Assembly: GCA_021159335.1 (NCBI GenBank)
Contig: JAGGRZ010000133.1
Span: forward strand, 1 to 59,239
Length of the DNA: 59,239 bases
Source: a bacterium
GTDB lineage: Bacteria > UBP14 > UBA6098 > B30-G16
Direction: 5' to 3'
Shown here: in pieces, positions 46,981 to 50,510 of the stretch
Numbering within the stretch: the first letter of the stretch is position 1
How the letters are laid out: each line of letters opens with the position of its first letter
Program-made: the position numbers and the translations under genes
The notes under the pieces: model-generated
Seen by the model: only the letters and a program-made list of their open reading frames with translations
Databases searched by the model: none
Told to the model about the DNA's origin: nothing

Positions 46981-48927
46981 TTACTCAACCTCATAATCCG
47001 CGTCCATAACCTCACCTCCACCTTCACCGCCCTCTTTGGGGCCCTCGCCAGGAGGAGGTGTGGTAGGACCACTACCAGGAGGAGGTGTAGGTCCAGCACC
47101 CGGAGGTGGAGTAGGACCACCGCCGCTTTTATAAAGTTTTGCTGCTATCTCGTGCCACTTGTTCTCAAGCTCATTTAGCTTTATTCGCACTGCCGGTATA
47201 TCGTCTCGTTTTATAGCATCCCTTAGGTCTTTGATTAGGTTTTCAAGCACATTCCTATCTGCAGGGTCGAGTTTCTCACCGAGTTCTTTCATTTCCTTCT
47301 CAGTGGCATATGCGAATTGGTCAGCACGATTTTTGAGCTCTATTTCCTCTTTCCTTCGGCGGTCCTCTTCTGCGAACTTTTGCGCTTCCTCGACCATACG
47401 CTTTATCTCGTCCTCCGTAAGCCCGGATGATGGTTCAATCCTTATCGATTGCTCTTTGCCTGTGGCTTTGTCCCTTGCGGTAACATGAAGAATCCCGTTG
47501 GCGTCGATGTCAAATGTTACCTCTATTTGCGGTACACCTCGTGGAGCTGGTGGGATACCCTCAAGATAGAACTTTCCGAGTGATTTGTTGTCCTTTGCGA
47601 GTGGGCGCTCACCTTGAAGAACATGTATTTCCACTGTCGTTTGATTGTCCTCTGCGGTGGTGAATATTTCGGTTTTGCGTGTTGGTATCGTCGTGTTCCT
47701 CGGTATTAGAACGGTCATAACGCCACCAAGTGTTTCCACCCCAAGTGAAAGTGGTGTAACATCGAGAAGCAGAATGTCCTTAACCTCACCAGAAAGGACA
47801 CCAGCCTGAATAGCCGCACCAACTGCAACAACCTCATCAGGATTTATTCCGCGATGAGGGTCTTTTCCGAAAATTTCCTTAGCTTTTTTCTGAACAGCAG
47901 GCATTCTGGTCATTCCACCGACCAGTATTACCTCGTCTATGTCAGCAGCAGTCAGTTTTGCATCTTCGAGAGCTTTTTTGCATGGTTCCACTGTCCGCTC
48001 GAGCAGGTCTGCAGTCATTTGCTCAAGCTTTGAGCGGGTAAGAGTCATTGAAAGGTGCTTTGGGCCGGAAGCATCAGCAGTAATGAATGGAAGGTTTATC
48101 TGTGTTTCCATAACTGATGAAAGCTCTATTTTGGCACGCTCTGCTGCTTCTTTGAGACGCTGCATCGCCATGGGGTCCTTAGAGAGGTCTATACCCTGCT
48201 CCTTACGAAACTCGTCTATAAGCCAGTTTATTATCCTCTGGTCCCAGTCGTCACCGCCAAGATGAGTATCGCCGTTAGTGGACAGAACCTCGAAAACGCC
48301 CTCACCTATTTCGAGTATGGAAATGTCGAATGTTCCACCACCGAGGTCGAAAACAGCTACCTTAAGGGTTTTGCCTTTTTTGTCCAATCCATATGCAAGC
48401 GATGCGGCTGTTGGCTCGTTAAGAATGCGCTTAACCTCGAAACCGGCTATTCTTCCCGCATCTTTCGTAGCCTGCCGCTGGGAATCATTAAAGTATGCTG
48501 GAACGGTTATCACAGCTTCTTTTACAGTTTCTCCGAGGTAGGCTTCAGCATCCTGTTTCAGTTTCTGCAAAATCATTGCGGATATTTCTGGCGGGGAGAA
48601 TTCCTTGTTCACAGCAGGGATGTAAACTCTTGCGTCGCCACGGGGTCCCTTTACAACTTTGTATGGAACCTGAGTTATCTCGGTCTGAACCTCATCGTAA
48701 CTTCTCCCCATAAACCTCTTTATGGAAAAGACGGTATTTTCCGGGTTTGTTATTGCCTGTCTTTTGGCGGTTACGCCAACGAGCCTCTGCCCTTCTTTTG
48801 TGAAAGCGACTACAGATGGCGTTATTCTTCCACCTTCAGCGTTTGGGATTACCGTGGGCTTGCCGCCTTCCATTACAGCCATGCAGCTGTTTGTGGTTCC
48901 GAGATCTATTCCCAGAATTTTCGGCAT
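46981..48927 (-). CDS. dnaK: Chaperone DnaK (Hsp70)
   Basis: 648 aa from ATG 48927 ([20 protein letters not shown]), which has GGAGG 8 nt upstream; two in-frame starts closer to the site are less likely. ATPase domain with [22 protein letters not shown] and [13 protein letters not shown]; substrate-binding domain with [10 protein letters not shown] and [12 protein letters not shown]. The C-terminal tail ends in VMDADYEVE but contains three 8-9-residue Gly-Pro-rich units ([25 protein letters not shown]) in place of the usual Gly-rich linker. grpE and dnaJ are absent; hsp20 is upstream on the same strand, with a strong hairpin between. Confidence 0.98.
47048..47122 (-). repeat. Tandem repeat in the dnaK tail
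   Basis: Three imperfect tandem copies of 24, 24 and 27 nt (minus strand order), encoding [16 protein letters not shown] and GPTTPPPGE just before the conserved C-terminal end of DnaK. Such units can vary in number by slippage. Confidence 0.7.
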
Positions 48928-49004: not shown

Positions 49005-49029
49005 TGGCGGGGGCGTGACACCCCCGCCA
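49005..49029. promoter_or_regulatory. Strong hairpin between hsp20 and dnaK
   Basis: TGGCGGGGG (49005-49013) and CCCCCGCCA (49021-49029) pair over 9 bp with a 7-nt loop. Transcribed in the hsp20-dnaK direction it is followed by A-run, not T-run, so it is not a normal terminator. It could protect or process the hsp20 transcript, or partly limit readthrough into dnaK. Confidence 0.6.
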
Positions 49030-49040
49030 CGAACTTTTTG

Positions 49041-49493
49041 TTACTCGACCTCAACGGGTATCTCTTTGGGCTTTGCGGACTCCTTCTTGGGCAGAACCAC
49101 CTCAAGAACACCGTTTTTGTAAGATGCCTTTATCTTGTCCGCCTCCACATTGGTCGGGATGTAGAAGCTCCTTGAGAACGAGCCGAACACACGCTCCACA
49201 CGATGGTAGTTCTCGCGCTTCTCGTCCCGCTCGATTTTCTTCTCGCCGGAAATAGTCAGAATGTTATCCGAGAGGGTAACCTTTATCTCATCCTTCTCCA
49301 TTCCCGGGATGTCAGCGCGAACTATTATCTCGTCGTCGGTCTCGGCAATATCCACTCGAGGAATCCACGCTGGAGCCTCTTCTGAGCTTCTCCTTATCGG
49401 CAGCCTTTCTCCGAAAAAGTCCTCGAAGAACCTGTGAAGTTCATCGGTTATATTCATCAAGTCCTCAAATGGTCTCCATCTTACCAGTGCCAT
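49041..49493 (-). CDS. Small heat shock protein, Hsp20/alpha-crystallin
   Basis: 150 aa holdase that keeps unfolded proteins soluble for DnaK. The alpha-crystallin domain spans about residues 45-140, with the conserved PRVDIAETDDEIIVRADIPG, FYIPTNVEADKIKASYKNGVLEVVLPK (the G-V-L motif) and a short C-terminal extension with IPVEVE in place of a clear I-x-I. The ATG at 49493 is preceded by AAAGGAGGTG. Upstream is a sigma-54-type promoter with paired palindromes, which suggests stress control through an enhancer-binding protein. dnaK follows on the same strand after the hairpin at 49005. Confidence 0.95.
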   Translation of the reverse strand: MALVRWRPFEDLMNITDELHRFFEDFFGERLPIRRSSEEAPAWIPRVDIAETDDEIIVRADIPGMEKDEIKVTLSDNILTISGEKKIERDEKRENYHRVERVFGSFSRSFYIPTNVEADKIKASYKNGVLEVVLPKKESAKPKEIPVEVE

Positions 49494-49544
49494 TTTATCA
49501 CCTCCTTTCTAAAGGTGTTTTTTTATTTTCTCACCTGAATTGAA

Positions 49545-49560
49545 GCAACAATCGTGCCAA
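49545..49560 (-). promoter_or_regulatory. Sigma-54 (RpoN) promoter of hsp20
   Basis: On the minus strand the sequence reads TTGGCACGATTGTTGC. The -24 GG (49558-49557) and -12 GC (49546-49545) are exactly 10 nt apart, and the flanking TTGGCACG and TTGC match the RpoN consensus. Transcription should start near 49534, leaving a ~40-nt leader before the hsp20 ATG at 49493. No CIRCE element or obvious -35/-10 pair is visible. Confidence 0.8.
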
Positions 49561-49612
49561 TTGGATAAAGCCCTATTTGTGAGGTTTAGGTAAGGATGAG
49601 AAAGGAGTTGGG

Positions 49613-49648
49613 GTGACAATTTTGTCACTATTTGTCACTAATGAGACA
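49613..49648. promoter_or_regulatory. Candidate enhancer (UAS): two palindromes upstream of the sigma-54 promoter
   Basis: A perfect palindrome GTGACAATTTTGTCAC (49613-49628; arms GTGACAA/TTGTCAC) and a second, imperfect site TGTCACTAATGAGACA (49633-49648; 5 of 6 pairs). Their centres are 20 bp apart, two helix turns, at about -87 and -107 relative to the predicted start. This is the usual location and geometry for a dimeric sigma-54 activator. The rest of the 49494-49803 gap is AT-rich without a clear gene. Confidence 0.6.
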
Positions 49649-49803
49649 GATTTTGTGCAAGGAATGGCATAATTTAACATACATAATTTTCAGCTATTTT
49701 GAAATTTGACAAGGACAGATATTGAGCTGGCGGGCAATTGGACTTAGTTTGTTGAACTTGTCGTAGGACATTCATTAATGATTCGGACAATTTTGGGTTC
49801 TAC

Positions 49804-50193
49804 TCACCTTTCCTCCAGCCAATTTTCAAGATAATTTTTTAGGTTTTCAACAAAGTTTTCGGCTGCTTTTAATGTCTCTCGAGCTTCTTTTTCAGTAATG
49901 GTAAAGCCTATTCCGTAGTCTCCGATTAGCCTTTTGTCATAAGCTTCATTGAGTACTTTTCCTGCTTCTCTATTGAAAATTCCAGTTTTTACAAAGTGTT
50001 CGCCAAATAAAGTTATTACTCCTTTATGAGAAGAAGCGGTTAAATTTTTTGTGAGAAGTATTGCCTCTGTCATGAAAAACATTGCATAATAGCATCTTGA
50101 AACACAGGAATCATAATCCCCAATATCCAATGAATGTTTGGCAGTAATCAGAAATTTTTCCGCTTTTTCCACAAAATCTTTTATCTCCTTCAT
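49804..50193 (-). CDS. HEPN-domain protein (HepT-like partner of MNT)
   Basis: 129 aa all-helical HEPN protein. The typical 'SCVSRCYYAMFFMTEAILL' helix of the COG1895 group is near residue 30, and KRLIGDYG with the later helix is conserved. Proteins of this group pair with minimal nucleotidyltransferases; many pairs act as toxin-antitoxin modules in which HEPN is an RNase, others have unknown roles. A clear R-x4-6-H RNase motif is not evident. Its start overlaps the MNT gene stop (ATGA), so translation is coupled. Confidence 0.85.
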   Translation of the reverse strand: MKEIKDFVEKAEKFLITAKHSLDIGDYDSCVSRCYYAMFFMTEAILLTKNLTASSHKGVITLFGEHFVKTGIFNREAGKVLNEAYDKRLIGDYGIGFTITEKEARETLKAAENFVENLKNYLENWLEER

Positions 50194-50510
50194 ACATTGA
50201 CTCCATCTTTTTTCACATTTCGCATAAACGGGTAGTTATAATTCTCAAAAAAGCTTTTTGGAAGGACAACAACTGATATGAATTCTTTATCCTCGAGCAG
50301 GATATCGAACAAAAGATTACTTAGACTTCTCCTCACATCGAAAGGATCTATTGAGTCATCAACTAATACGACTACATCGATGTCTGAGTGTTTTGTAGCA
50401 CTTCCTCGTGCTTGAGAACCGTACAAAATGACATTTTTGACTTTATCTCCATATTCTTGTAATAAATAATTTTTTATACGATTTACCAATTTGGTTATCT
50501 TTTTATCCAT
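50190..50510 (-). CDS. Minimal nucleotidyltransferase (MntA-like)
   Basis: 106 aa. Minimal nucleotidyltransferase core: VILYGSQARGSATKHSDID with the GS (residues 31-32) and two metal-binding Asp (43 and 45), followed by a third acidic strand. Such proteins modify the paired HEPN protein by AMPylation in the MntA/HepT type VII toxin-antitoxin. The ATG at 50510 is the first gene of the pair. The 185-nt region upstream, before pgi, shows no other feature. Confidence 0.85.
   Translation of the reverse strand: MDKKITKLVNRIKNYLLQEYGDKVKNVILYGSQARGSATKHSDIDVVVLVDDSIDPFDVRRSLSNLLFDILLEDKEFISVVVLPKSFFENYNYPFMRNVKKDGVNV

Follow-up and report, generated by a model that had tools for sequence, protein, structure and literature searches.

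The hsp20–dnaK locus

The window, a stretch of 59,239 nucleotides of DNA from an uncultured bacterium, carries on its minus strand an hsp20 gene (49041–49493) that encodes a small heat-shock protein of 150 aa (Pfam HSP20 PF00011, 2.6e-27). It is followed, 113 nt after its stop codon, by dnaK (46981–48927, minus strand; Pfam HSP70), and preceded by a strong Shine-Dalgarno sequence, AGAAAGGAGGTG (49499–49510, minus strand), which is an invariant block in the family alignment. An MNT-HEPN type pair, made up of a HEPN-domain gene and a nucleotidyltransferase gene (49804–50510), lies close upstream of hsp20 in the same orientation. The gap between hsp20 and dnaK holds no promoter-like site in the window, and the GC-rich hairpin found there (49005–49029) has no U tract in the hsp20–dnaK direction, so it is probably not a full terminator of an hsp20–dnaK transcript. 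Our collection contains 17 genomes of the class, 13 of which, the window's genome included, have this hsp20. dnaK lies downstream of it in 12 of the 13 and was not found behind it in G004; the gap is 50–282 nt in 11 genomes and 717 nt in G014. From this recurrent order we infer that the unit is probably hsp20–dnaK, with dnaK as the second gene of a single transcription unit.

A sigma-54 promoter element upstream of hsp20

The sequence TTGGCACGATTGTTGCT (49544–49560, minus strand), located 51 bp upstream of the hsp20 start, matches the sigma-54 -24/-12 consensus YTGGCACN5TTGCW with 0 mismatches and places the predicted transcription start at ~49533. The first-pass annotation had called this a textbook -24/-12 element standing in front of hsp20 without CIRCE or a clear -35/-10 site, and both parts of that description hold. 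The full-consensus match is at 49544–49560, and the element is kept in 13/13 class orthologues. CIRCE (TTAGCACTC-N9-GAGTGCTAA) is absent in front of hsp20–dnaK, and a search of the minus strand over 49494–49682 revealed no -35/-10 site, the closest candidate being a 9/12 match at 49712–49683. Sites of this type number 6 in the wider region versus 3.0 ± 1.7 in shuffles, which is near background.

Sites with 0 mismatches to YTGGCACN5TTGCW are rare: the assembly of 2,057,941 bases has three in total, that of hsp20 included. All three are intergenic and located 31–67 bp 5′ of an ORF start, and the ORFs behind them, called from simple ORF lists and not from an annotation, are a pilin-like gene, a response-regulator gene, and hsp20. 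One-mismatch sites are no commoner in the window's genome than in a reversed control (20+16 versus 17+16), which leaves full matches at a suitable position as the only informative ones. The -24/-12 pattern alone is therefore weak evidence, and the weight is carried by its context. Overall, sigma-54 control of hsp20 is very likely. The type IV pilin-like ORF, with its full-consensus element 60 bp upstream (G000:C23:1269-1285, L003; G000 is the window's genome), was considered as a member of the same regulon and rejected, as no TGNCA site occurs in the 200 bp upstream. A one-mismatch element was also seen 38 bp before an ORF resembling a ribosome hibernation-promoting factor (G000:C119:423-439, L029).

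A phased array of TGNCA half-sites

Further upstream, two palindromes had been described with centers 20 bp apart, and both are there: a perfect palindrome, GTGACAATTTTGTCAC, at 49613–49628 and a 5/6 palindrome, TGTCAC-N4-GAGACA, at 49633–49648, centered at ~-87 and ~-107. Their reading as an enhancer with a single palindrome pair survives in part. The sites do lie upstream, but what they form is really an array of TGNCA half-sites at ~10 bp phase, and the notion of two self-contained palindromes was rejected because the row of half-sites is longer and variable. In the window, half-site 1 (TGACA, 49614–49618, center ~-83) and half-site 2 (TGTCA, 49623–49627, center ~-92) together make the perfect palindrome. 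Half-site 3 (TGTCA, 49633–49637, center ~-102) and a degenerate half-site 4 assigned from phase only (AGACA, minus strand TGTCT, 49644–49648, center ~-113) make the imperfect one. The steps between the four (49614, 49623, 49633, and 49644) are 9, 10, and 11 bp, and the TGNCA unit is itself a 5-bp palindrome. The copy of the perfect palindrome at hsp20 is the sole one in the window's genome at 0 or 1 mismatch.

Conservation across the class

The earlier proposal implied conservation in relatives, and each of the 13 class genomes with this hsp20 has both the -24/-12 element and the sites upstream of it. First: the relaxed pattern TGGCAYN5YTGY is present 57–78 bp before the start codon in 13/13 class hsp20 loci, as compared to a mean of 0.03 loci, and never more than one, in shuffles. 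Six of the 13 loci have the full consensus. The -12 part reads TGT instead of TGC in family f4 (G010, G014, and G015; L064, L061, and L059) and also in G002 (L056) and G011 (L070), with the -24 part kept. Second: TGNCA half-sites at 9–11 bp phase are found upstream of hsp20 in 13/13 class loci. Between -300 and -50, the 13 loci contain 81 half-sites, 13 of which are the -24s, against 15.4 ± 3.8 expected from dinucleotide shuffles. Pairs at spacers N4, N5, and N6 number 11, 15, and 7, versus ~0.1 each expected, and there are none at N0–N2 or N8. The distances peak at 9–11, 19–20, and 40–41 bp, which is the signature expected if the sites share one helix face. Third: six family members were aligned (mean column identity 48%), and the columns that do not vary are mostly those of the array (TG-CA...TG-C), TGGCA...TTG, and the Shine-Dalgarno sequence.

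The array is nearly exclusive to hsp20. The 17 genomes were searched with a strict pattern of three sites, one end being TGACA, and every intergenic match lies at hsp20; the other matches (in G000, G001, G003, G004, G005, and G006) are inside or overlap ORFs. A few weaker arrays may exist at other places, since this pattern misses those without the right-end TGACA or TGTCA. A divergent hsp20 paralogue has neither the -24/-12 element nor the array in 7/7 genomes. Outside the class, TGGCAYN5YTGY occurs within 250 bp upstream in 5 of the 22 hsp20 loci versus 0.04 expected, not counting as matches the -12 elements ending in TGA (L066 and L091), and the three-site array in none of the 22. Sigma-54 elements at hsp20 are thus more widespread, while the array is so far class-specific. 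The suggested stress circuit is supported as a class-wide trait.

rpoN and candidate activators

A sigma-54 circuit presupposes rpoN and an enhancer-binding protein (EBP), and the first-pass annotation had anticipated both. The window's genome contains rpoN with its activator-interacting (AID), core-binding (CBD), and DNA-binding (DBD) domains, scoring above the TIGR02395 cut-off. The gene reaches the end of contig C100; a further short DBD match, at the start of C62, is presumably its end. The same genome encodes four full EBPs, which we compared with the others of the class, 72 in all, by a tree and by their recognition helices.

Two groups emerge as candidates. Group A (P0002 in the window's genome) has receiver, AAA, and HTH_8 domains. 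In G002, a group A gene whose product is 68% identical to P0002 is divergent from hsp20 with the array between them. This adjacency is seen in that one genome, and in several others the group A gene is beside a histidine-kinase gene. Group A was found in 11 genomes and not in family f2 (G008 and G011), where the array persists. Group E, an EBP in which no receiver domain was detected, was found in every array-bearing genome but G004 (83% complete), and in G009 only as a divergent form. Its gene comes right after rseP, which encodes the site-2 protease (TIGR00054, above cut-off), in G000, G003, G008, G010, G011, G013, and G015, which represent three families; the locus in the window's genome is G000:C90 (L226, 2497-4919), and those of the relatives are L216, L217, L219, L224, L225, and L229. 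The recognition helix of both A and E reads xRTLYRK or nearly so, and the two occupy neighboring groups of the tree with weak support. The remaining two EBPs in the window's genome, with helices HRNTLRNK (group C) and STLYRK (group D), were set aside on the recognition helix alone, an argument that is soft because motif similarity does not always track DNA-binding-domain similarity (PMC4641369). The likely activator is A or E, at about equal weight: A is favored by its adjacency to hsp20 and E by its distribution.

Other heat-shock control in these genomes

In the relatives examined, groES has a perfect or near-perfect CIRCE upstream; HrcA is encoded in 11/17 class genomes, and most relatives keep both. 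In the window's genome (98% complete), HrcA was not found, and the CIRCE of the groES–groEL locus is degenerate (TTAGCACTCCCAAGAAAGTGTTGCTAA, 3 mismatches; G000:C155; L208 and L232) and overlaps a sigma-70-like promoter, TTGACA / TATATT. The HrcA circuit in this genome looks like one in decay. Four proteins with sigma-70 region 2 are present. The one of RpoH size matches the RpoD/RpoS models best and scores 173.7 versus an RpoH cut-off of 323.1, and RpoH is likely absent, the remaining three frames (181, 197, and 556 aa) having been judged by length only. Against the PspF model, with its cut-off of 443.55, EBP A scores 296 and EBP E 299.5.

A model for sigma-54 control of hsp20–dnaK

Using all of these observations, we propose, with a probability of roughly 0.88, that hsp20 has a genuine sigma-54 promoter activated by an EBP on the TGNCA array and that this promoter very probably also serves dnaK by read-through. 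Activators of sigma-54 require ATP and a specific signal. In the proposed mechanism, sigma-54 RNA polymerase would wait at the -24/-12 element, and an NtrC-type AAA+ EBP, either candidate A (receiver-AAA-Fis, P0002) or candidate E, would bind the TGNCA row ~80–115 bp upstream of the transcription start. Each half-site would provide one major-groove contact per helical turn, and the phasing would allow at least two dimers to bind next to each other and assemble into an active ring, which would reach the promoter by DNA looping and open it under protein-folding or envelope stress. Transcription through hsp20 would then continue into dnaK. Within this model, the dependence on sigma-54 in the cell, the operon, the acting EBP, and its signal are all predicted from sequence.

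The model can be extended to the source of the signal, at a level that we regard as speculative and rather unlikely to be right in full: in this class, sigma-54, and not sigma-32 or HrcA, would command the Hsp20–DnaK branch of the heat-shock response through an RseP-coupled EBP with a degenerate receiver region, such that envelope or proteolytic stress is relayed directly to cytoplasmic DnaK by way of the TGNCA row.

Among the alternatives, the best survivor retains the sigma-54-dependent promoter and assigns the array to some other factor, a repressor or an architectural protein, with the activator bound elsewhere or acting from solution. As a motif, TGNCA is short and symmetric, and neither A nor E was found in every array-bearing genome, as this alternative would allow. 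However, the array occupies the usual place of EBP sites, is helix-phased, and accompanies the -24/-12 element in 13/13 genomes, and in G002 an EBP gene faces hsp20 across it; we consider this explanation improbable. Less probable again is that the main promoter of hsp20 is of the ordinary sigma-70 type or a repressor-controlled heat-shock type, with the -24/-12 element decorative or secondary. The presence of HrcA in relatives and of CIRCE at groES speaks for it, but at hsp20 CIRCE is absent and no sigma-70 site rises above background, whereas the -24/-12 element stays at a nearly fixed distance in the 13 class genomes while the flanking sequence has diverged. Chance matches in AT-rich intergenic DNA, an idea in keeping with the control-level frequency of one-mismatch -24/-12 sites genome-wide, are already refuted by the 13/13 conservation, the shuffle controls, and the negative paralogue, and their likelihood is negligible.

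Comparison with known systems

The usual regulators of DnaK and small heat-shock proteins are sigma-32, HrcA/CIRCE, HspR, and CtsR. By comparison, a whole class here appears to put hsp20–dnaK under sigma-54, with groES keeping CIRCE. The Psp response of E. coli is a stress circuit driven by PspF, a sigma-54 activator that lacks a receiver domain, and EBP E appears to lack one too. Psp had been put forward as a precedent for the present locus, and it does stand as one for sigma-54 control of stress genes, although the nearest is E. coli ibpB. For this gene, a sigma-54 promoter has been reported (Kuczynska-Wisnik et al. 2001, as cited in PMC4316790 and PMC4370416), so that, as those citing passages present it, the two loci share an Hsp20-family small heat-shock gene with a sigma-54 promoter. 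They differ in that ibpB comes second in the sigma-32-controlled ibpAB operon, while the hsp20 of the window comes first, with dnaK next. Unlike at the ibpB locus as described in those passages, the -24/-12 element here is the only recognizable promoter and is preceded by a conserved phased array.

A genome-wide motif prediction published in 2025 (PMC12316311) describes, in the passages concerned, predicted sigma-54 promoters for IbpA, DnaK, DnaJ, GrpE, and GroEL/ES, enriched in Bacteroidota and Planctomycetota, and assigns the COG0071 and COG0443 chaperones to sigma-54 regulons across whole phyla. In contrast to those predictions, the class studied here has the sigma-54 element at hsp20–dnaK and keeps CIRCE at groES in relatives. 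The same passages of PMC12316311 deal with promoters and contain no activator-site array, which is a feature of the present locus. Given ibpB and the Bacteroidota and Planctomycetota precedents, the idea of a sigma-54-controlled small heat-shock gene is not new.

Repeated TGTC sites are a feature of Pseudomonas PilR. In D. vulgaris, the NtrC-family regulator DVU2956 has three half-sites (PMC4641369). The array of hsp20 resembles these systems, whose regulons often comprise 1–4 operons, in having several short half-sites ahead of a sigma-54 promoter, and differs from them in its unit, a TGNCA every 9–11 bp in rows of several. As far as we have found, what is new is the conservation throughout the class, as well as the phased array, the hsp20–dnaK arrangement, and the candidate activators. 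Together they offer a concrete DNA code, TGNCA every 9–11 bp plus a -24/-12 element, and two named candidate activators, one of them tied to rseP.
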